DNA from: Apostichopus japonicus
Lineage: Eukaryota > Echinodermata > Holothuroidea > Aspidochirotida > Stichopodidae
Length of the DNA stretch: 64,000 nt
Assembly: GCF_037975245.1 (NCBI RefSeq)
Contig: NC_092576.1
Span: forward strand, 21,639,611 to 21,703,610
Direction of reading: 5' to 3'
Shown here: in pieces, positions 1,741 through 63,900 of the stretch
Layout: every line of letters begins with the position of its first letter
Position numbering within the stretch: the stretch's first letter is position 1
Notes under the pieces: model-generated
The model's database searches: none
The model's input: the letters and a program-made list of their open reading frames with translations, nothing else
What the model was told of the DNA's origin: nothing
Position numbers and translations under genes: made by a program

Positions 1741-3100
1741 CATGAGATCCAAGAGAACTTCATATGTCATTCAAAAGAACTTGGTCAAATAATCAAGATC
1801 TTGCAATCCAATTTTTGGTTCAGCGGCACAAAATATGAACCCATAGTTATGGTCATCTTCATCATCATCAGTTCTGATGCAGTTGGTCATTGGCCATATC
1901 AAAATCATAGCTAAAGGTGTATGACACAACAATTGAAAACAGAATATAATTAAGGGTGACCAAAGATCATTAATACTGAAGTAGTCAAGGTTTGTCAGTC
2001 CAATGACTATCCAGTCTGGCCTTCAGTCTTTCAAATATGGTTTGCTGACAACACGCCCAGGCAGTAGATTTCAAGGATCATTAATAGGCTGATAAAAAAA
2101 GGAAAAACATTGGAAAGGAAAGTAAAGCTGAACTCAAAGACACACCAAATACTTTGCATGGTTCCATGACTGGTCTATGGAAGTTGCCATCATGATAAAT
2201 AACAGTATGTCCATGATGGATGCCTCGTATGAAAGAAGGCTTTGGAGCAAATGTTGTTATTCCATATTTAATGTAGTTGTTCCTGGTCAATGGAGAGCAA
2301 GCACAGTATATGTAATATGCTGGTGTAAGTCTGAGCAACTGGATATTTGAAAGACTCTCCCTTATTGAAATGTACAGTAACTTTTAGCTCGACCAGCTAT
2401 GCCACTTTATATATTGTGACTCAGCATCTTCACTCTGTCAATCTATCTAGCTGTTATCCAGCTGTTATCTATCTTTCTACAGTACCTTTTTGAAGAAACT
2501 ACTGAATGGGCTGTGTGAAAACCCCTCATAAAACTGCAACTGTATGGTAGCCTATGGCTAAGCCATCCTTTACCAACTTAAACCCTGCAGTTCTGTGTTT
2601 GAGGCAAGTGGGATTGCTTGACAAAAGATTGAACTATTAAGTTTATGTAGACAGCTCAAACTTGGCAAATTACAATTAGTTTCCTACTTGTATTAACATG
2701 TAATAGAAAACCATCAAGGTGGTAAGTTTGTTCACCATACATGTATCTGTGCTAGCAGCCTAGGATGTCATCACTTACAGTTTGTATTTAGGAATTCTAT
2801 AAAATTATGTCTTTTTCTTTCACCTTGACACATGATGTGGTCGAGTACTTATTTATGAATCAAGTAGAGCCTTGTTTACATGAGACCTGCAGCATTTCAT
2901 ACAACATGCCAGTTTCAGGGTTTGCAAATAACAGTTTTCAGTTGTAACTTATCAGTAGTATTACAATTTAGTTATGAAAACTTTTTGTTAAAATTTCACA
3001 ACTTGAGTGTGATTTAATGGATTATCTGTATAACATTTATCTATGGTTGTTTAAGTGCTCTGGAAACTCTTTTTGTGATGGATTTTTGTGAAAGTTGGAT
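1741..3100. other. No recognisable gene
   Basis: AT-rich sequence without a supported exon. A short block at 2866-2930 (GAGCCTTGTTTACATGA, then TGCCAGTTTC) matches the start of the insert at 29186, so at least part is a dispersed repeat. Confidence 0.4.
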
Positions 3101-5415: not shown

Positions 5416-6199
5416 TTTTTATTTCTTAATCTATCTTCCATGGCCATGAAATGACTTCATTCTTTAAATAAGCCTGCACTGTTTGCTGAGATATTTTGTA
5501 ACACACTGGCACTAGCAATGTGTCCTTGAGCTCATTGGTTGAAAACCTGTTGGACCAGTGGTTCATTGTTGAAAAACTTTCCACTGTTAGCAAAGTCAAT
5601 TTTGGGCTGATATACAGCAGATTTTAACTTTCTGAGAATAGGGGGAAAGTCAGAGGTAACATAAAGCACTGGACCAGCTAGGTGCAACAGTTCAGTTTAT
5701 TGTTGTTGTTGTAAATGTCAACATTTAGATTCATTGTTCCTAAACCCTGAATGTACACTCTTTGATTGTGGTCTGCCATTCAATGTACAATGCATTTTTG
5801 TTGGAAATGAAGGAAATCATCAAAAAGATAACATGGTTATTGACTACCAATCAGTGGTAAAAGAGATTTTTTTGGAACACAAAGGTTGCATAGTATCACT
5901 TTAAGGTTTTCTTTCAGCTAGCAAATTTTTAGAGGGTGGGCCAATTTCATAGGTTTGGCTGGTACACCGTTACTCCTCTTTCTGATTGGGTCACGTGATA
6001 CGGTATATGTAATATACTGCCACTGTACAGTGTATATCCTGTATGTAAATGTACATAATGTATAGCACAGTTTCATGCAATGTTGGCATAACTCACGTAT
6101 GTGTATATTGCAGTCATTGCGCTGTGTACGTTGTGATTGTGAATTAGTATCAATACAATACTTGCAAAGAGGATAGTAGTACTGCTCGTTACATCGATA

Positions 6200-23528: not shown

Positions 23529-24025
23529 GTAGCATGGTCACTTCGAAGTTCGGACACCTAAGCCCTAAAACACCCCAAAACTAAATCTTATGGTATAAAT
23601 CACCTGAACATATACTTGATTTTGTGGGAGAAATTTGTTATAGTACGATACACGGCCAAATTTTCTTTCCTGCAAACTGTTTTCACGTTGTATTCCAAGA
23701 AGATTCTTCGTGTTTGTGGAACTGGTATTTTTTTGCTAGAGTATTGCGAAGTTCGGACACCCAACCCACAGTGTGGCACTGGTGATAAAATTAGTGGCGC
23801 AGTTGCTCTTTCAGTAATTATAACAGACTTCATAGATCTCCATCATTTTATTGACAAATATCTTAGTACTTTGTTGCACACAGGCCATTTTGGAGGGAAA
23901 ATAACTGTAGCTTCGTACTTTTTGATGAAATGTGGCTCTTCCTGTAGGTTGTCATGGTAAAATCGTGTATTTCTTAGGGTGTCCGAACTTCGCAGTGTTC
24001 CGAACTTCGCAATACTGACTATACT
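23529..24025 (+). mobile_element. 497-bp inverted-repeat element, copy 1
   Basis: It begins GTAGCATGGTCACTTCGAAG and ends in CTTCGCAATACTGACTATAC. The motif CGAAGTTCGGACACC recurs inverted near both ends and once internally. A closely similar copy, in opposite orientation and also 497 bp, occupies 44674-45170, which fixes both ends. Each copy has an open frame of over 100 residues, but the differences between them are mostly amino-acid-changing, so it is not under protein selection. Non-autonomous DNA transposon; superfamily uncertain. Confidence 0.75.
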
Positions 24026-26155: not shown

Positions 26156-41212
<15,057 letters not shown>

Positions 41213-44142: not shown

Positions 44143-46261
44143 CTGGGAAATAGAGAGATAGAAAAGTTAAACACACTCTGCTGAGGTGACAATCCCAAGA
44201 AGCTTAAAAGACAGGAGCCCAACAGGCACTATGGTACCTTGCTAGTTGCTAAGTGGAATATTTAAGTGCTATATGTCATCACCCCATATCATCATTGATA
44301 AAATAAATGCAAAGTATGAACTTCACACAAATAGGCAAGTTCCAAAGACGTCACTCCATAAAAATATTTAGGCGCACTTGTACCAGTTATTAACCAACAA
44401 CTGTATTCCAAGTTTGGATACAATTAGGTTGAAGGTTTAATAGTTATTGCAATTTTAAAATTTTGGCTCCAGCCCAAAAACTTGGGCTCTGTATTTTTCG
44501 CCCAAATGGTCTCCAACATTCCAAAATTGCCTAACATAACACTAGGCTATTTGCTCGCAAAATGTCACGTGTGTAACACTAAGACACTGCATAGTGGCCT
44601 GGGTACACAGCACACTTGTACATTGCAGCAACATAAACGAGCATGTGGTATGCCCACATGCCCAGTACACTGTAGTATAGACAGTATTGCGAAGTTCGGC
44701 ATACTGCGAAGTTCGGACACCCTAAGAAATACACGATTATACCATGAAAACCTACAGGAAGAGCCAAATTTCACCAAAAAGTACGAAGCTACAGTTATTT
44801 TCTCTCCAAAATGACCCTTGTGCAAGAAATTACTTACATATTTGTCAATAAAATGACGAAGATCTATGAAGTCTGTTATAATTACTGAAAGAGCAACTGC
44901 GCCACCAATTTTATCACCAGCGCCACACTGTAGGTTGGGTGTCCGAACTTCGCAATACTCTATCAAAGAAATACCAGTTCCACAATCACGAAGAATCTTC
45001 TTGGAATACAATGTGAAAACAGTTTGCAGGAAAGAAAGTTTGACCGTGTATCGTACTAAAACAAATTTCTCCTACCATATCAAGTATATTTTCTTGTGAT
45101 TTATACCAGAAGATTTAGTTTTGGGGTGTTTTAAGGCTTAGGTGTCCGAACTTCGAAGTGACCATGCTACTGCATACACATTGTACTGTGGCTAGCTTGT
45201 CATACGTTGTGCAGCCATGAGATAGAAAGCAAGTGTGGTCACCGCCACCATGGTCTGTACTCAGTAGTGTACAATGTATACAGTAATTTACGTAACCACT
45301 AGTGCATATGCACAGTATGCACATACAGCTTAAGTGTAGGATTATCCCCTCGTTACAGAGCAAAATGTGATTGATTTCTTACTTTGTTTCTAATATAAAT
45401 GGAAGGGGATACCAACGAGGTACTACAATTTTTCAAGAGCGAAGTTTCATTTTAAAGAAAATGGATTTCAAAGTTTTGTTATAAGTGTTTAACACTTATG
45501 GTAAATAAGCTAGTCGTCTGTGGGACAACCTAAGCGGGGTTTCAGGTTGTGACGTGACTTTTGGTCGTCTCTGATGATCGGACGACAGTTATATTTGAGC
45601 CCTCTATTACTATGTGTCATACTTGACCCAAGTTCTAAGAAAGAGCCATGTAACTGCATGGATAGACACAGTACTGTAGATGCTGTGTCTGTTAGTCAAA
45701 TTGTAACCACTATGTCAATCGCACTTTTACAGAGTCTTAACGAAAACCCCAAAAATTCCCACAGTGAAACTAAGACTAACTAGTATTAGTACGACTAGTA
45801 AGAACATAAATTTGGTATTTTGCAACACTTTTGGGGAATATTTCAACCATTTCACGGAATTGTAAGTACTGTTAACTTAAAAGCATGCCCGAAGTGAAGG
45901 AACTTTTTCCTTGCTTCGAGCAGTTTTGACGCCTGACCATTTTAAGTATGCTACTTCTCTCTATTTATGATGGAAGTTGGTCAGACCATCTATGAAATCA
46001 CATTGCTAAAAGACAGAGCTAAACAGCTGAGCAAATCAGCGAGACCGTCATCACCGCTATCATTAAGAAGAACATCAGCCTAATGTCCTTACTAGCATTG
46101 CATACTTCATTACTAGCCCAGTCCTGTCGACCTAACGTTAAGAACGTATTTAGGCTATACACTAGGCCTAACCGCCCTAAGATACTTACCAGCATTACAA
46201 GTCCCCACGTACTTAACAATGTACAGCATATCGAAAGTTTAGGTCCACAAATGGTCTTCAT
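43939..46261 (-). CDS. RNASEK: RNASEK (ribonuclease kappa / V-ATPase-associated membrane protein)
   Basis: Two coding exons on the minus strand, 46261-46190 and 44142-43939, join in phase 0 into 91 residues; human RNASEK has 98. Exon 1 gives MKTICGPKLSICCTLLSTWG then LVML, matching vertebrate [21 protein letters not shown]. Exon 2 gives NAVAFIEDVPATEN, YTNVSNNCFFAAGVYF and ends SSHYQVN, matching SAVLIEDVP and VSYNCFIAAGLYL. Two hydrophobic segments (about 10-32 and 60-80) form the hairpin membrane topology of this family. RNASEK was first described as an endoribonuclease and is now known as a V-ATPase V0 component (subunit f) in endosomal acidification. Start choice: an in-frame ATG 21 bases upstream (46282) is possible. 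Donor CTG|GTAAGT, acceptor TATTTCCCAG. The intron (44143-46189) holds a 497-bp transposon. Divergent from PLEKHF. Confidence 0.92.
44674..45170 (-). mobile_element. 497-bp inverted-repeat element, copy 2
   Basis: Inverted relative to the copy at 23529-24025, same length, with CGAAGTTCGGACACC motifs at both ends. Lies wholly in the RNASEK intron. Confidence 0.75.
46190..46261 (-). CDS. RNASEK: RNASEK coding exon 1
   Basis: 24 residues ending LVML with donor GTAAGT; the first membrane helix begins here and is completed by exon 2. Confidence 0.9.
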
Positions 46262-48955: not shown

Positions 48956-51900
48956 GTAATATGATTGATTATTTCTAAAACATCGTTTTATAGAGTTTTT
49001 TTTTCAATCTATTTTTTTGGTGTTGGTCGGTCTGAATGTTCTGTAAAATTTTATAACCAGGTCTTACACTCATTATTTGCTGTCCTTGACGTACAGTTAT
49101 TGAAATGTAAATCTTACGATAGCCTGCTACAGTGCTAGGCCAAGAACTAGTAGTAGTACTGTGTAGTAACAGTAGTAGGCAAAGTACTTCAGTTACGTGT
49201 ATGTCCTAGCTGAAGCCATAATACTAAGCTAGAACTAACAAGTATTGCTAGTATGAGTATGATCATAAAGACAAAGACTGGTTGTTATTGTACGTAATCT
49301 ACTTGGTCCGATAGTAGTAGCATAGTAAAAGCTTCATAATTGACACACCTTCAAATATTACTAGTACTAGCTAGATACAGCAGGCAACCTAATCTTTTTG
49401 CAGTGAAAGCAGAGTAACATATATCATGCCTTTTCAGCTATGAGCTAAGTAAGTCAGTAAGTAAGTCCACTTTATTGAATCCCAGAAGAAAATGACATAT
49501 CTGCTGTGAGCAATAAAATGAATGATACAAAATACACTTACCAGTCAAAACGTCCCTTTACCAAACATCCCCGTACCAAAACGTCCCCTCTTTTGGTCAA
49601 AACGTCCCTGTAAGTCAAAACATCCCAGTCTATCACATTCATTCATAGTTGTGAATATAAATTAATTTTAAGTTATAATTTGGCTAAGTTATAGGCATGC
49701 AAGTTGGATTACAGGCGCTAAATAAATCATAAGGGACTATATCGTTTAATTATATTTGGTATGAAAAAGGTATATCGCTATATGTTTTTCAGTGAAGTAA
49801 CGAATTAAGGAAAACAAAAAATATTATACAAGAGGAATAAAAAATAATTTGGATGTGTATACTATACAATACATATATCTGCTAAAAACTGTGTTTTAAC
49901 CTAAACTATACTTATCCTTACTCATTGATTTGAACTAAAAACATCAACACTTGTATTCCAACTGATAATAAAAGCGGGGATGTTTTGACTCACGGGGATG
50001 TTTTGACTGCGGGGACGTTTTGGTAAAAAGCGGGGACGTTTTGGTCTTAAAAATGCAGGGACGTTTTGGTAAAGGGACGTTTTGACTGGATACCCAAAAT
50101 ACAATATACAATGTTCAGTTATATTCAGTCTATACAAATTATGCACTAACTAGCTCCAACAGCACAACTCAGTCGAACGGCCAGCCGTACCTTGTGAAGT
50201 CCTTGTTGTGAACACTAATGGCAGTGTCTTTAAACGAAGAATGATGTCTATCTGCGAGTTCTATCGCGAGTTCCTGCTTGCGGGAAGATCACATATACAT
50301 ACATACATACATACATACATCTGTGTGTGACGTCAGTGACCTCAATCTACTGCTATGAGCAATGATACGGCTGGTTAGATGATTATACAATGGGTGACAG
50401 GTGATCTTTCCACAGCAGCTTGTCTCGTACACAACTCTCCCTACACAGAACTTCCGTTCCAATGCTGGTCTGTCCTCACACAAGAGGGCCAGGAAATGTT
50501 AATTGATTGCCTGTTTGCACTCAACAGTCATCATTGGTAACAATGGACAGTCGAAGACAGCTTGTCTAATGAATATAATATTGCGTCTTCAGTACAGCAA
50601 TTCTTACTGTAGGCCAATTGTAATGGGTCCATTGGACAAAATATTAAAGACTTAAGATAATTGAGAACTAAACGCTCACAGGTCTTCTTGACAACTGAAG
50701 TTAAAGCAATAGGTCGAAGATCATTCATGCATGAGATTATTGGGTTTTTGGGCACAGGGATGATACATGACTGTTTCCAAATAGATGGAATGGACTGTGT
50801 AGTGAAACACATATTGAAGATGTAAGTAAATAAAATACCAGCTCACTGACTTGTGCAATCTCTAAGCACTCGGGGGGGGGGGGGGGGATAGATTATCAGG
50901 GCCAACAGCCTTAGATGGAATAATCTTTCTAAACTTATGCCGAACTTCCTCTTCAGTGACTTTTAAAAAGGGCACGGAATTGTGAGAATTTACACATATG
51001 AGCTGATCAAATTGTGGCTTCCTTTAAGCATTTAACACCCTCCTCCCAGTTTTGCACATATTTTTGGCATTTGGAAAAATTACCTCAACATGATACCACT
51101 ACTCCCTGGGACCAGAGCTTAGAGGCTCAAAGCATAGCAAATAGAATCCACAGTCAATGGATGTATACTTACACAAAAGTTACAGTTAGCTTATCAACGA
51201 ATGTATCAATTTCAGGTATGAAAGAACTTGACATGGCAGACGTTTTAAGGCCATTCTGCTCAATTGTACGTTGCATAGGCACAGAGCAATAAATATTTCA
51301 AGATCATTTATACATTTCTGAGGAAGTATACATATATGCAAAATGCATACATTTGAGTGATTTGGATTTTTCATAGACAATTTTTAATTGTAGTAGTACT
51401 ACCTTGGCCAGACATTTGAGATACCAGTTTTGTAATAACCAGAAGAATACATAATTCCATATGTTGCAAGGAGAAATGGATGTACAGTATTAGGCTTACA
51501 GTGTATAATATTTAATTTGATAATATGTTAGCTTACATGATGTCAGAAGTATCCTGCTTTTGGACACACGAAACTAGAAACATACAAACTTTTGGGCGAA
51601 ATTCCAATCCCAATATTGTACTTTTAACAGCCAGAATGAAGGTAAAATTGCACTTTAATCCATGCATCAATACATAAAGTAAATTATAATCAGCTGTTGC
51701 ACATTATTATTGTTTGCACAACTCACAAACAGTAACTACTTGTGCAACTCTCAATTGCGGAATCCTGTTTAATAGTAAATTAGTTAAAAATATAAGCGTA
51801 TTCTATAACACTAGTCCTAAATCGTTCTTAAATGAAAGATTATATTCCCCAAAAATTTGATATGCATGAAACTGTGTGCTAGCATGTTTGGGGAAAAGCA

Positions 51901-54900: not shown

Positions 54901-57900
54901 CACTGTGTATAATGTATTACTGCATCATGACAATCTGGCTCTGAAGTATGTACAGGTAACTACAGTTTGCAGTTTTTATTACAAAATGCGTAAAATACAT
55001 TGATACATTTGAATCAATACTGAATTAAAAGAAATTTCTTCAAATATGCAGTAACTGAGTATGATTGAAGGTAAGTTAGCATGGATGATAGTCATTGTAT
55101 TGGGATCAGAATACAGACCAGACAGTACCTAATAATGTCACACTGTATGTACTGTGAAGTATTAGTTTAATACTGAACTCTCAGTTTAATCAATAATAAA
55201 ATTGCACATAGTCTTACTTTTTAGTTGAATATGACAACTGCTGGTGTGTACCAGGTTATAATGAATACTTCTACTTTTAATTTATTAATATTTATCCACA
55301 GAGGAAATGCAGTTTCTAAAAAAAAAATAAAACGATGATAATGATGATGCTGAAGATCTATAAAGTACAGACAACACAGATAGTTAAACTGCAAATATCA
55401 TTCTTCATGGATAAATCAACTAGATGATTAAATATTATGAAAATGTAAGGCTTTTGAAGAATTTCTACCATCATTACATCAGAGACTACCCACTGAGACC
55501 ATTTCCTGGAGTAAGGAAGGGTTTAGCCATTAAATTCACAATACAGTAAAAAGTGTGCAATAGTTTCCTCATTGAGAGGTTTACTTTGTCTACCTGACCA
55601 CCGACATTCCTACATCATCATGTTCTACGTAGGCCATCCAGATATTTAGTTACTGCTTTGTCTGTGTTTATAAAGTAGTAAGCACTGTGATGTAAGCTTC
55701 ATGGCATACTGTATAATGTTGGCATAAGATTGTGGGTAATATATCTTTAACTGCTACAAAATATTTCACAAACTTGCCATTACTGTACATAGCACAATAC
55801 AATGAACCATACATGTACTAGACTGACAAATATAAATGAAACCTGTGTCTACAGTCAAGTTATGGACTTGCATTATTTTGGGATTATGATGTCAAGGAAG
55901 TTATAGTCTCAATGTGTGTTTGCCAAATCGTGACTTTGACCTTTCCAACTTACTGCTCCTAAGAGCTCAGAGAAAATAACACAGTTCTATGCAATTTTCT
56001 ATGCAATTTATTAAAGAGTCTGTAAATTCTACAAACTTCAATCAAAATTTGCAAGTCGTGCCTAACAGATCATGCGACAATCAAATCTTTCTGTTTTGTT
56101 AACAACCGTTAGGCGGCTTTGGTCTATAGGAATACTTTACGTGGCTAACCTGTGTTAGGTTTTTTCTCTTGTACAGTATCTTTCTTTTGGTCTCTGTTTT
56201 GTTTACAACCGTTAGGCGGCTTAGGTCTTTAGGAATACTGTTGATGTAGCTTGCAAAATTGTGTCCCTCCTTCCATTGCAATGAACAAACAGGTGTTTTC
56301 AGATGTTTCCTCCGTGGAATTGGGTAAATACGAATATAGATTACAGAGTAATGATCATGTTGATATGGGCTGTCGCAGTGATCTTATGGTCAATCGTTCA
56401 CACCATAAGGGCAACAGCAAATAAATTTCTTTCATTCAATTGCGACAGCTTTTTTTCAATTAAAACCACCTGGTCAGACTGCATGTAGAATAAGAAACAT
56501 TGAATCTGCTTTGGAAGTTTGTTTTTACGAAATTTATCATCAAACACGTATTGAGACTTAAAGAAATGAGAATTTGAATTTCAAACACAAATTGTAAGCA
56601 CAAGCAAGTCAGCTACCCTCACTGAGAAGAATACATGTAGGCTGGTACATGTAGGCTGGTACATGTAGGCTGGTACATGTAGGCTGGTACATGTAGGCTG
56701 GTACATGTAGGCTGGTACATGTAGGCTGGTACATGTAGGCTGGTACATGTAGGCTGGTACATGTAGGCTGGTACATGTCTCTCTCTCTAGTCGACAGAAG
56801 TCGGAATCATGTTGAGATTTGCCCATTTATTTCTGTCCCTCATCAAGTTAGGAAGATCAGTTTGAAGCACCCCGATGTCCCTAGCAATTACATCTATATA
56901 GCTGAGCTTATGTTTTCCCCTATTTCTCCTTCCATGTTTTGGTGTCCACATGATAAGTTGAGAGACTGGTTCCTTGGTGTTCCTGTATGAGTGCCCTGCT
57001 AGTTTGAGACGGCGTTGTTGTATCTTACAGGATAGTTTTGGTTTGTTGCCATACAGTTCAGTATTTGTCATATGTTGACTCCAATGTACATTTAAACATT
57101 TCCGTAAAAGTCTTGTGTAGCACCCATCTAGTTTTGCTTCCAATTCCCTCGTAACTGTCCATGTATCAGAGCCATACATGATGACAGACTGTACAGTTGA
57201 TTTAAAAATGTCTAGTTTGGTCTTTCTGTTGAGGCCATAATTTCCACACAGTGTCCATTTTATTACAAGCAGACCATGCCATGCCAATTCTTCTGTTGAT
57301 TTCACTTTTACTATCTCTCACAAGGGAACCAAGGTACTTGTAGTTGTCAACTTCATTTAGTTTTGCGCCACTACTTATTTTGATGTCGATTTTGTCCTGG
57401 GTTTTGATGTTGACTGTGAGATATTCAGTTTTTGACTCATTAAGTCTAAGGCCCACAAGCATGCTTTTCAACCTTTTGCAGTAGCTCTTGACCGTTGTGC
57501 TGGTCATCGCTACATAGGACAATATCATCTGCAAAATCTAGATCACAAAGGACTACTTTTGGATATCTTGAGCTTCTTCTTTGGTTGAGTGTGAAGCCTA
57601 GTTGCTCTGCATTTATGGTTGATTTCCTCATTATGTAGTCAAGTACGATAATGAATAAAAACGGGGCCAGAGTATCGCCCTGTAGAACTCCTGCTTTGAT
57701 TTGGAAAGGATCAGTGTCGCCGTCGGGTGAGAGAACGATGGCTTCGGTGTTTTTGTACATAACTTGGATGGCACTGACCATTTTTTTCGGTATTCCATAA
57801 GCCCTGAGTATTTTGAACATTTTTCCTCTATGAATCGAGTCGAATGCCTTGCGAAAGTCAACGAAGGTTGCCATGAGGGGGAGATTGTGAAAGTCTGCTT

Positions 57901-60900
57901 CCACTAATATGCGCCTCAATGCTAGGATGTGTCCAGCAGTACTCCTACCCTTTCTAAATCCATTTTGGTTCCATCTAAGCTTTTCCTCGACAGGGCTTCT
58001 GCATCTGTTCAGTATGAGTTTATTGTATAACTTAGCTGCCATTGGTGTCAGGCTTATTCCCCTGTAGTTGGTGGTCAGGCTAAGGTTACCCTTCTTAGGT
58101 AAGGGAACTATGGCACTCCTTGCGAATTCAATTGGTTTTTGGGCTGAGTCTAGTATGAAGTTACACAGAGTCAAGAGAAAAACTTTGAACTCGTCAATTT
58201 TCCAGAATTCTAGAGGTATTTCGTCAAGACCTGGCGCTTTGCCTGCCTTTGTAGCCTTGAGAACTGCATTGAGCTCATCCATAGTGAAAGACTCTGTAGA
58301 TATTTCTAGGTCACCGTCTGAAATTATTTCAATGTCTTCAATGTCATCTAGTTTTGAAGGTTCTTCTCCAAGTAATGCTTCAAAGTGGTTTTTCCACTGC
58401 TTCTGTCTTTCTTCAGGTGTATTGCCATTCAGCCTCCCTTGGGTCGTTGCTTTCCTACCGGTTACATGGTCTATTATTTTCCAGGCTACTGATGGATCGT
58501 TACAGTTAAAGTTGCCAGATATTTCATCAAACCTTTCTTTGTAATAGTTATTTTTTGCTATTTTGTATGCTTCTGAGAGCTGGCTTTTCAGATTTTGTAG
58601 CTCATTCTGTTCGGTTGCCGTCTGCAGTTTTTCTCTTATGTCCACAACTGACTTAATGTTGTACAGGGCTGCTGTCTTTGTTCTGCGCTTTCTTTTTGGG
58701 AGTAGTTTTGGGGCTACCTCTTTATTTGCTTGTACTAGGTAACTGTACTCTTCACAGGGGTCTGCAGCATTGGTAGACAGTACAGAATATCTGTTTTTAA
58801 CTGCAATGGTGAATTTCTTCTGCAATTCTGCATCTGTTCGAAGCACTTTCCAGTCTAGAACTGTTCTCTTTTGAGTTGATTGTTTTGGTGCTCTTAGGCT
58901 CAAAACTATGCGGCAAGTGAGGATACGATGATCAGAACCAACGCTTCCGAATGAGCTGTAGGCTTCAATATTTTGAATGCTATTCTTCCATTTAGATCTC
59001 ACAAAGATGAAATCTAGCTGGGCACGGTAGCCTGATGGATATGTGAAGGTCCACAATTTCCCTTTGTGTTTTTGGAATTTTAAGTTGATAGGTATGAGGT
59101 CTGTTTCATTGATGAGGTCCAGCAGTACTTCACCATTTCGATTTGTCTCTGCCTGGAATGTATACTTGCCATCGGAGTGACCAATCTTGGCATTCATGTC
59201 CCCTCCGATTAAAAGAAAATTGTGTTTTTGAATTTCATTGATTGCTACTATGAGGTCCTTGTAGAAAGTTTTTGTTTTTCTTCACAGCTGGCATTGGTTG
59301 GACTATAACAGCTGATGATGGTATTGGCTGGGTTTCCACTGAATGATGCTTTTAGTATTCTTGAGGAGATTTTTTCCACATGCTGTAGACATTTACTGGT
59401 ATGAGGACTTAGCAAAATTCCTACTCCCCCTACTGCAGCACCCATGGAATTCCTTGTTGCAGACGAAGTTACAGGCAACCAAGTGTTGTCCATGTGTTGG
59501 AATTTGATGTCCTCGTCGTGAACAATTCTATGTTCTTTAATACAAATTATTTCTTGATCATATTTCTCTGCGAGAAACTGGATCTCATTTAGTGCTTGAG
59601 TGCTGTTTAGTGTTCTCGTGTTGAATGTGCTAAAGTTCAGAGTCTTTCGACACCTGAGAAGTTTTGGAGCTGCTGTCGGCCAATTATCAACTGTTCCCCT
59701 CCCCGGGGAGTTGAAGGGAACAGCGTCATTGACTCTTAAAGTAAGAGGTGGTCCACAGAAAACTCCATTTTTGTTTTGATCAGGGGCTTCAACCCTGGTG
59801 CTGTTTGGTGTACATCATAATTCTTTCAATGGCTAACTTAACTGTCTCCTCGCCACTGGATGACAGCTGTGGATGTCGTTGGCTGAAGAAATGTTAAGCT
59901 CATCCGCCTTTTGATGGCTTAAACTCCATCATGGGAACCACTGCCCTACTCAAGCGCTCTTCCGTCTGGAGTCGTTGGCACTTCTTGAGGAAACGAAGGG
60001 TGCCTTAATAGGTAATGAGCCCTTCCTGCCCCGCAGTGATCGCTGACTGACCAGATGCCCCAAGCCGAGGAAACCCAAAGAGGTAATCGCCGAGCGCCAA
60101 GATAACACAGCCGGTTCCAGCAAACTATGCTCCCGCCTACGCTACCAAACCACTGTCCTGCTGCCAACAGTTTTGTCGTACCCTGACAAGGGGGCTCACG
60201 GGTACTAGACCTTGCCCAAGGGTCACCCGGAACTATGCATGGCAGGAGCGTCCAACTCCCTGAGGTAGCATATATGCATACCCGCATACCTACAAAACAT
60301 GGTACATGTAGGCTGGTACATGTAGGCTGGTACATGTAGGCTGGTACATGTAGGCTGGTACATGTAGGCTGGTACATGTAGGCTGGTACATGTAGGCTGG
60401 TACATGTAGGCTGGTACATGTAGGCTGGTACATGTCTCTCTCTCTAGTCGACAGAAGTCGGAATCATGTTGAGATTTGCCCATTTATTTCTGTCCCTCAT
60501 CAAGTTAGGAAGATCAGTTTGAAGCACCCCGATGTCCCTAGCAATTACATCTATATAGCTGAGCTTATGTTTTCCCCTATTTCTCCTTCCATGTTTTGGT
60601 GTCCACATGATAAGTTGAGAGACTGGTTCCTTGGTGTTCCTGTATGAGTGCCCTGCTAGTTTGAGAAGGCGTTGTTGTATCTTACAGGATAGTTTTGGTT
60701 TGTTGCCATACAGTTCAGTATTTGTCATATGTTGACTCCAATGTACATTTAAACATTTCCGTAAAAGTCTTGTGTAGCACCCATCTAGTTTTGCTTCCAA
60801 TTCCCTCGTAACTGTCCATGTATCAGAGCCATACATGATGACAGACTGTACAGTTGATTTAAAAATGTCTAGTTTGGTCTAGGCTGGTACATGTAGGCTG

Positions 60901-63900
60901 GTACATGTAGGCTGGTACATGTAGGCTGGTACATGTAGGCTGGTACATGTAGGCTGGTACATGTAGGCTGGTACATGTAGGTATGTAATGATCTCATTGT
61001 TTATGTATCATGATTTACCTTTTACTGAGTCATTAATAAACTCTTGTTTTCATAAACCACATTTCCTGTTGGAACCTTTGAATCTATAGGACTTTTACAG
61101 GAAAAGTTTTTGTATGCATCATAATTTCCCTCATGTACTATCAACTTATGTCTTAAAGTTCCTTCTAAACCTTATTTTAGGTAACCTTCTAAGTTCTATA
61201 AATAACATGTGATGCTGTTCAATGGCATTTAGGTTGAAAATCAAATTGTGGTTTGTATTGATCAGTGAATCAAAATGATGAAACATGTAGTAAAGAAACA
61301 TGCTGGTGTAGTTGTTGTGGATTTACAAGATACTGATGGTTATAAAAGATTGGTAGCAAACAAAGACAAGGAGGAAATCAAACAGGACTGAAAATGTCTG
61401 AAATGTATATAACATTGAAGGTACTTTAAAGGTTCTTGTAGTATATACTACTGTATGTATGACTGAAGGAATGCTTGCATATTCCCTCTGATAATGTTTG
61501 GACAGATTGGAAGGTTCACATAAAGTGCAAGAATTGCTTACAAAGCTTTTAGTTAGTCACAAACTTTCAGAAGAAAATGTCTCGGTGGTTTGATGACTCA
61601 TCAAAGGTTTGAACAAAGTGGTATCTGACAACTTCTGAGCTAAATTCATCGATCATTTCCCTGGTTAGTCAGGCCTGATAAATAGTTGATAATTCCCAGA
61701 CCTCAAAGCTGAAAATTGTTACTGGAAAATATCTGTCAGTGGATTTTCATTCAACAGGACTTCACAGAATAAGTCTACAGTAATGCTGCTATGTTGTTTC
61801 AAATTTGTTGTTGCTTTGCAGGATTATTTCAGACATATTGTGATTAACATTTGCAATTGGTGTTTCGGAAGGCACAATGTGGAAAATAGTTGCAACAAGA
61901 GTAGCAGAAAACTTGTAAATTTGGGTTGGTTTGTTGGGGGTGGACTAGTAAGATTAATCTGTGACCTACATGATACTGGGTCAGACCTAGGTTAGGTCAT
62001 AGTTCCGCATCAGCATAACAAAAGATAAAACAGGCTGATTTACTAAATATTCAATTATTGACACAGTTCTCAAGGCCAATATTGTTGCATGTTTGTAACT
62101 GTTGGATCCATCAAGCTAACTGGCTGCCAGGATTACAGGTTATTTAGAGTGTAATGGGGAGAACCCTGGGGGTGTTAGAACCCAGGTACAGCTTGAATAC
62201 CAGCTGTGATGTTTCTAATAATATATACAGAATATCCAAAGGTGCAAGTATAGAGTTAACATAAACTAACAACTAGAAAGCATCCAGCACTGTATACAAT
62301 GACACAGTAGTAACTAATAAACAGCCTTTATAGCTTGAAGTATGAAGTTGAGGATTGTTCAGTGTCCTTCACCTTGCTTGGAAACGACAAGCACGACACT
62401 ACTGGGAAAATGTGACAAGCACCACACTACTGAGAAAATGTGACATGCACCACACTACTGGGAAAATGTGACAAGCACCACACTACTGGGAATATGTGAC
62501 AAGCACCACACTACTGGGAAAATGTGACAAGCACCACACTACTGGGAAAATGTGACAAGCACCATACTACTGAGAAAATGTGACAAGCACCACACTACTG
62601 GGAAATGTGACAAGCATCACACTACTGGGAATATGTGACAAGCACCACACTACTGGGAAAATTTGACAAGCATCACACTACTGGGAATATGTGACAAGCA
62701 CCACACTACTGGGAAAATTTGACAAGCATCACACTACTGGGAATATGTGACAAGCACCACACTACTGGGAAAATTTGACAGGCACCACACTAGACTACTA
62801 TGCCAAACAATAAACATGAATTTAACTGATTTAAATATAAGAACCCTCGATTAATACAATATACCAAACTGTTTAACTGGCCTGCTTGATACATTCTCTG
62901 CTATCTCCATTGTACTACTGTATTAAAGTTACTACAGTAGTCATGTGTTCAGATTCAATGACAGATAGTATTGCACTGTCTGTTGTGCTTGGACCTGAGG
63001 TGCTGCCTCATTGTAGTTGAAGTGCTATGAAATGCAGCATTTATTTCTTGTTATTTGATATGCTTCCTAGTTGCTATTATCTGTGGAATGATCAAAGCAG
63101 GTCATCGTCAACTATTTGTCCGTTGCAATCGGTCTGCAAGTATATTAGGCATGGAAATGTCAATGTGTAAGTATAGAACAACTTGTCCCTATAGGAAAAA
63201 GTTGGATATGGCTATTTCCTGAAGTTGACAAGTGTGGGTTCTCCTTGTTTGCAACCAGCATCAACTCTGTGTTCATCAATTCATCAAACCAACGGTTATT
63301 GCAGTAGTAATACAGATTTTAGATAATGGAATAAAGGAAATGCTTTTAGTATGCAATTTAGCAATGCTCTTGATTGGGCCTACAGAATGAACAAAAGGCA
63401 TCGTTTTTAGCCTTTGTCCATTGCAGATTTGTACATTTGTTGTACAATAAGAATTGCTTGCATCTGATTGATCAAATTCAAAACCATTTCTAACATTGTG
63501 TCCTACTGGTTTTGTGCGATAATCTAAGTGTTTCTCGCACTGTCAGTGTATACACTGTAATTTCACAAGGGCATTTGTTGAGAATGGTTTTATTTCCACT
63601 GTAATTAAATCTGTGATCTTGCAGTGTACAATCTTGCATACAATTTATCCACTCAGTCACCCCTCAGCTTATGTTTTAACTTTTTGTTGATTTGCAGCCC
63701 CTTGCTGTACCTGGTCGTGTTCTTGTCGGGGAAGGAGTCTTGACAAAGTTATGTCGTAAGAAGACTAAACCACGAATGTTCTTTCTTTTCAATGATATTC
63801 TGGTGTATGGCAACATTGTTATCCATAAAAAGAAGGTATGTTTTCTGTTGATTTAATGTAGTCTTCCTAATAATGGTAAGAGCATATACCCTTTCTAGTG

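Follow-up and report, generated by a model that had tools for sequence, protein, structure and literature searches.

Two copies of one LINE lie in the 64-kb stretch of Apostichopus japonicus DNA analysed here (the window), joined through arrays of a 14-bp tandem repeat, which raises the question of whether the arrays are simply the tails of the LINEs or also the sites into which the LINEs inserted. Read on the minus strand, the order is array C, a 5′-truncated LINE, array B, a near-full LINE and array A (Table 1). A first-pass annotation of the letters had proposed this order, and it is borne out by the perfect arrays and the two LINE copies. No LINE was found upstream of array C.

Table 1. 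Arrays, LINE copies and open segments of the composite locus (window coordinates).
Feature	Position	Strand	Description
Array A, tail of near-full LINE	56632–56778	−	147 bp, 10.5 units of the 14-bp repeat (CCTACATGTACCAG)n
Near-full RTE-like LINE	56779–60299	−	3,521 bp; 5′ end possibly incomplete
Array B, tail of truncated LINE, directly 5′ of near-full LINE	60300–60435	−	136 bp, 9.7 units
5′-truncated LINE copy	60436–60879	−	444 bp of 3′ end
Array C, directly 5′ of truncated LINE	60880–60981	−	102 bp, 7.3 units
Open segment, C-terminal part of LINE protein, ends at TAG	56787–57317	−	no Pfam family at E 0.01
Open segment between RT and C-terminal segments, another frame	57202–57537	−	part of the LINE protein
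Open segment, reverse transcriptase and part of endonuclease	57446–59281	−	PF00078, E 2.3e-24; PF14529, E 5.4e-6
Open segment, N-terminal part of endonuclease	59248–59814	−	no Pfam family at E 0.01; weak NCBIfam exoDNase_III

The two copies share one orientation, lie 136 bp apart and are identical at 444 of the 445 aligned positions of their 3′ ends; at the level of larger blocks, 56643–57223 and 60300–60880 match at 99.83% over 581 bp. The 5′ 3 kb of the LINE occurs only once in the window, where blastn revealed no further copies of the element. Both LINE 3′ ends pass into the array at the identical base (AGAGAGAG followed by ACATGTACC), and array sequence immediately precedes the LINE 5′ end in both copies. 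The claims that every LINE 3′ end runs directly into the repeat and that the second LINE begins right after an array were thus correct at 2/2 junctions of each kind. The stop codon (TAG, 56789–56787) lies close to the tail, as had also been proposed, at a distance of 8 bases rather than nine. That the near-identical 3′ ends reflect a recent, if undated, event is supported by the 444/445 identity and by the perfection of the arrays.

The repeat, which can also be written (TACATGTAGGCTGG)n, has G or C at 7 of its 14 positions, and its period is perfect in all three arrays, with a phase break in 0/3. Scanning the window for the unit with up to 3 mismatches yielded 29 sites, compared with a mean of 5.6 and a maximum of 11 in 100 shuffles. 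Twenty-five of these sites are exact, all of them inside the arrays (10 in A, 9 in B and 6 in C); each of the other four carries 3 mismatches, three being single sites (2732, 35120 and 56474) and one the run-out of array C at 60972. Outside the three arrays, the scan detected no exact unit in the 64-kb window, and a general host satellite is unsupported within the window, given that exact units occur in those arrays only. The outer arrays adjoin repeat-free sequence directly. The arrays terminate at three different phases, a pattern that favours no constant cut site and no constant end of the RNA. Outside the interval 56600–61000, exact 10-mers of the unit occur just twice, at 5957 and 46996 (−), probably by chance.

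Tandem arrays of other kinds are abundant in the window (74 overlapping TRF rows at score ≥40). Arrays of a 41-bp unit at 29847–30226 and 30233–30743 form an adjacent inverted pair (88% over 791 bp, opposite strand), and an inverted dispersed repeat at 23529–24025 and 44674–45170 (93% over 497 bp) contains an open frame of >130 aa in each copy. A C-terminal remnant of a hAT transposase lies at 33–443 on the minus strand (PF05699, E 0.001; 19.2 bits, below the cut-off of 21.4).

The coding span of the near-full LINE (59814–56787) is spread over four open segments that overlap one another and change frame at least three times; either this copy is broken or the sequence carries indel errors. The PF14529 match scored 26.7 bits, just below the cut-off of 27.4. 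In NCBIfam, the exoDNase_III match (E 0.0087) was far below the family cut-off, and the other match was to group_II_RT_mat only (39.2 bits; cut-off, 300). Ten PDB sequences matched at E 0.001 or better, headed by 8c8j (an RNA-directed DNA polymerase), LINE-1 ORF2p and R2 proteins. A second, unrelated RT remnant is present at 50576–50815 on the minus strand (27.5% identity over 80 aa, E 3.7e-4), and an (ATAC)6.5 run (50295–50320) that may or may not belong to it lies 256 bp 3′-ward.

An APE-type endonuclease and an RT within 3,521 bp, their coding split over four overlapping frames, recall RTE-1, BmRTE, HmRTE-e01 and SR3, which combine APE and RT in one coding region of about 3.2–3.6 kb according to the available excerpts of PMC2887409, PMC1291365 and PMC10294476. 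The length of the element is nearer to the mean of RTE-BovB in bivalves (3,583 bp) than to that of RTE-X (4,937 bp), as given in the excerpt of PMC10294476. The clade is also described as having a 3′ UTR that is extremely short and composed of tandem repeats (PMC2887409, PMC1291365, in part), consistent with the 8 bases found here between stop and array, and the same excerpts together with that of PMC10294476 report frequent 5′-truncated copies that keep the tail. By contrast, RTE tail repeats are characterized in the accessible part of PMC1291365 as AT-rich with units of 3–5 bp, and units listed in other excerpts span 2–7 bp overall, whereas the unit here measures 14 bp and is half G+C; the repeat also stands 5′ of both copies. 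Because the tail departs from the AT-rich 3–5-mer pattern, we file the element as an RTE-like LINE and not as a confirmed member of the clade. Neither a 14-bp RTE tail nor an RTE chain of this kind appears in the available portions of PMC2718515, PMC3747384, PMC2881922, PMC1291365, PMC10294476, PMC8226300, PMC11371274, PMC7265360 and PMC2887409, which is no claim of absence from print.

Relatives were sought in prokaryotic, viral and plasmid collections. Peptide patterns from the RT frame retrieved 6 stretches from viral_contigs and 40 from genome_contigs, none of which was confirmed; likewise, a search with alignment A1 gave 160 viral stretches and no confirmed relative, the doubled 14-bp unit had no occurrence in viral_contigs, and the phages gave no match. 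The motif DLDFADDI occurred at 3 viral loci, 0/3 of which had a tblastn match at E 1e-3. Among plasmids, three bacterial records matched, one at 30% identity over 49% of the query and two at 26% over 30%; the best (E 1e-25) has no annotated gene beneath the match, and the other two are annotated as reverse transcriptase domain proteins. The motif GVLQGDTLAP was found in no viral sequence and in a single genome contig, L004, whose unclassified element aligns with ours at 26% identity over 631 columns (E 1.3e-50). Its open frame enters an (ATTG)5 repeat at 3078–3097 and stops inside it at 3086, so that in 1/1 confirmed RTE-like relatives the frame likewise terminates at a tandem tail, built of another unit. 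PF00078 matched at three places in the genome containing L004, designated L005, L006 and L007, the last being L004 again. At E 1e-3 the window RT did not match L005, which in our judgement resembles the RT of a bacterial group II intron. L006, a LINE at a greater distance (E 2e-18), has (GATTT)4 about 1.1 kb past the end of its open frame; we are unsure whether this repeat is its tail. The LINE-bearing contigs L004 (1–3290) and L006 (1–3138) belong to a MAG labelled Flavobacteriales bacterium NORP85 and presumably represent eukaryotic contamination.

Since the tail of L004 is also a tandem repeat with another unit, the comparison supports the view that a tandem tail is a property of this kind of element while its unit is lineage-specific. 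The proposal that the tail takes the place of a 3′ UTR is accordingly supported by the anatomy of the locus, by the published features of the RTE clade and by L004. Apart from the length of its unit, the tail is ordinary for an element of the RTE kind and needs no special explanation. Folding of the array RNA gave a rod in which copies of the palindrome UACAUGUA pair (−45.5 kcal/mol; mean of shuffled sequences, −32.3; z −3.5, 1/200 shuffles as good). The centroid structure was empty, showing that no single structure is dominant, and because a repeated palindrome gives such a result by itself we treat the rod as a lead only. The LINE 3′ end with the first tail units folded no better than shuffled sequences (z 0.34, 123/200 as good).

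Tails account for arrays A and B, 3′ of the LINEs, and leave over the 5′ repeat junctions and array C. The first-pass annotation had offered either targeting of the repeat or template jumping as the cause; both fit the locus, and one locus, on which all the mechanism statements here rest, does not separate them. The weights that we attach to the explanations below are judgements and were not computed. We tentatively favour, at somewhat under an even chance, nesting of the copies into arrays of the identical repeat over template jumping in one event. In the nesting model, the RNA of the RTE-like LINE would end in the tandem 14-bp tail that is visible in the DNA, and would be inserted by target-primed reverse transcription, which is known for LINEs in general. 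A nick in DNA already carrying the repeat could supply a primer end that pairs in register with the tail, and older tails or tail-only inserts would then be favoured landing sites. The truncated copy may have entered an array and the near-full copy an adjacent one, in either order, giving the alternation array-LINE-array-LINE-array, and array C may be what survives from a previous array or from an insertion consisting of tail alone. Nesting is favoured by the position of both 5′ and both 3′ junctions in the same repeat, by the confinement of exact units to three arrays with just the two exact 10-mers outside them, by the proximity of two near-identical copies in one orientation with no third in the window, and by precedents in Zepp and R1, as excerpted from PMC8226300 and PMC2718515. 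Removing a copy in silico also restores a continuous array: for the truncated copy one junction base, A, can be assigned to either side, and for the near-full copy the array is continuous after one 10-bp duplication, ACATGTACCA. A 10-bp direct repeat, CCTACATGTA, is likewise common to the outer ends of the composite. Both values lie within the 6–12 bp range of RTE target duplications (about 6–20 bp in a wider criterion) in the excerpts at hand, and are indistinguishable from the array periodicity. Because a periodic array always yields some duplication length, the 10-bp value is compatible with a target duplication and is not evidence for one; CCTACATGTA was rejected as proof of a single insertion, since any composite bounded by one and the same array will show a repeat of this sort. 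Further points against nesting are that it is seen at a single locus, that array C requires an earlier array or a tail-only insertion not otherwise seen, that the in-register joins in arrays A and B need pairing as their explanation, that RTE elements are reported to insert without sequence specificity (PMC2887409, section 10, in the part available), and that the three array-end phases lend no support to a fixed cut site. Template jumping, by which one insertion would have copied tail A and the full LINE RNA as far as its 5′ end, then the tail of a second RNA (array B with 444 bp of LINE) and then the tail of a third (array C), is possible and in our view less likely. It covers the meeting of LINE 5′ ends with tails, the presence of array C without a LINE and, with no call for in-register priming or a previous array at the target, the unbroken phase of every array, and R2 offers a precedent. 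However, it takes two jumps, the second of which would have left from inside the LINE template rather than at the 5′ terminus; the RNA 3′ ends implied by the model differ in phase, and the 1/445 difference would have to stem from two separate source RNAs, from an RT error or from mutation after insertion. The excerpts of the literature examined describe no jumping by an RTE enzyme.

Independent random insertion of the two copies was rejected as, in our judgement, very unlikely, given one orientation, a spacing of 136 bp, repeat on both sides and no third copy in the window. A duplication at the DNA level, in which an array-flanked LINE was doubled by unequal exchange or replication template switching and the upstream copy later lost its 5′ part, seems to us unlikely. 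The 99.83% match of the 581-bp blocks would follow from it, and the 74 TRF rows suggest that tandem change is common in this window, yet it still requires a starting LINE with repeat at its 5′ end and a separate deletion ending exactly at array C, and the window contains the 5′-most 3 kb of the element just once. Least probable, in our estimate, is a misassembly that wrongly joined the tails and LINE ends of different copies via the identical repeat. Perfect arrays of 102–147 bp and near-identical LINE ends are easily misjoined, and indel errors would explain the broken protein, whose overlapping open segments need frame changes alone; ordinary decay fits equally. On the other hand, the outer arrays join directly to repeat-free sequence, and arrays of this length are short relative to long reads.

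The chaining is unusual and has known parallels, among which one locus in one genome does not decide the cause. In green algae, 5′-truncated Zepp and Zepp-like LINEs sit nested within copies already present and form chains rich in 3′ ends (excerpt of PMC8226300). The arrangement here fits such nesting and would look no different under template jumping; Zepp, however, is of the L1 type with (A)n 3′ repeats, unlike the 14-bp array found at 2/2 LINE 3′ ends. In Drosophila rDNA, R1 adds new copies next to older ones by way of a short intervening repeat, a 14-bp duplication that lies 5′ in those older copies (PMC2718515, in part). There, however, it is the 28S rDNA site that is duplicated by insertion, and the shared length of 14 bp is coincidental. 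SART1 and TRAS insert into a short tandem repeat, with pairing proposed between the 3′ part of the RNA and the target repeat (PMC7265360, available text), and differ from our element in that they have a 3′ UTR with a poly(A) tail and that their repeat target has been demonstrated, whereas here the repeat is the tail itself and two copies are known. Array C would fit a repeat present before insertion and does not prove one. The TRAS/SART comparison is an analogy, as nothing at the locus shows restriction to the repeat.

That the 14-bp tail is both the RNA recognition signal and a preferred landing site, with every insertion creating fresh targets and the LINE thus seeding and feeding a minisatellite of its own outside telomeres and rDNA, is a reading to which we give little weight. 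The locus is one at which nesting and template jumping could be separated once its alleles are known. If the tail is not also the target, what remains is a clean LINE chain of apparently recent origin, whose tail unit is longer than the RTE examples in the published excerpts consulted. If it is, the element would have made its own landing pad outside telomeres and rDNA, and would show how a LINE can give rise directly to a minisatellite.
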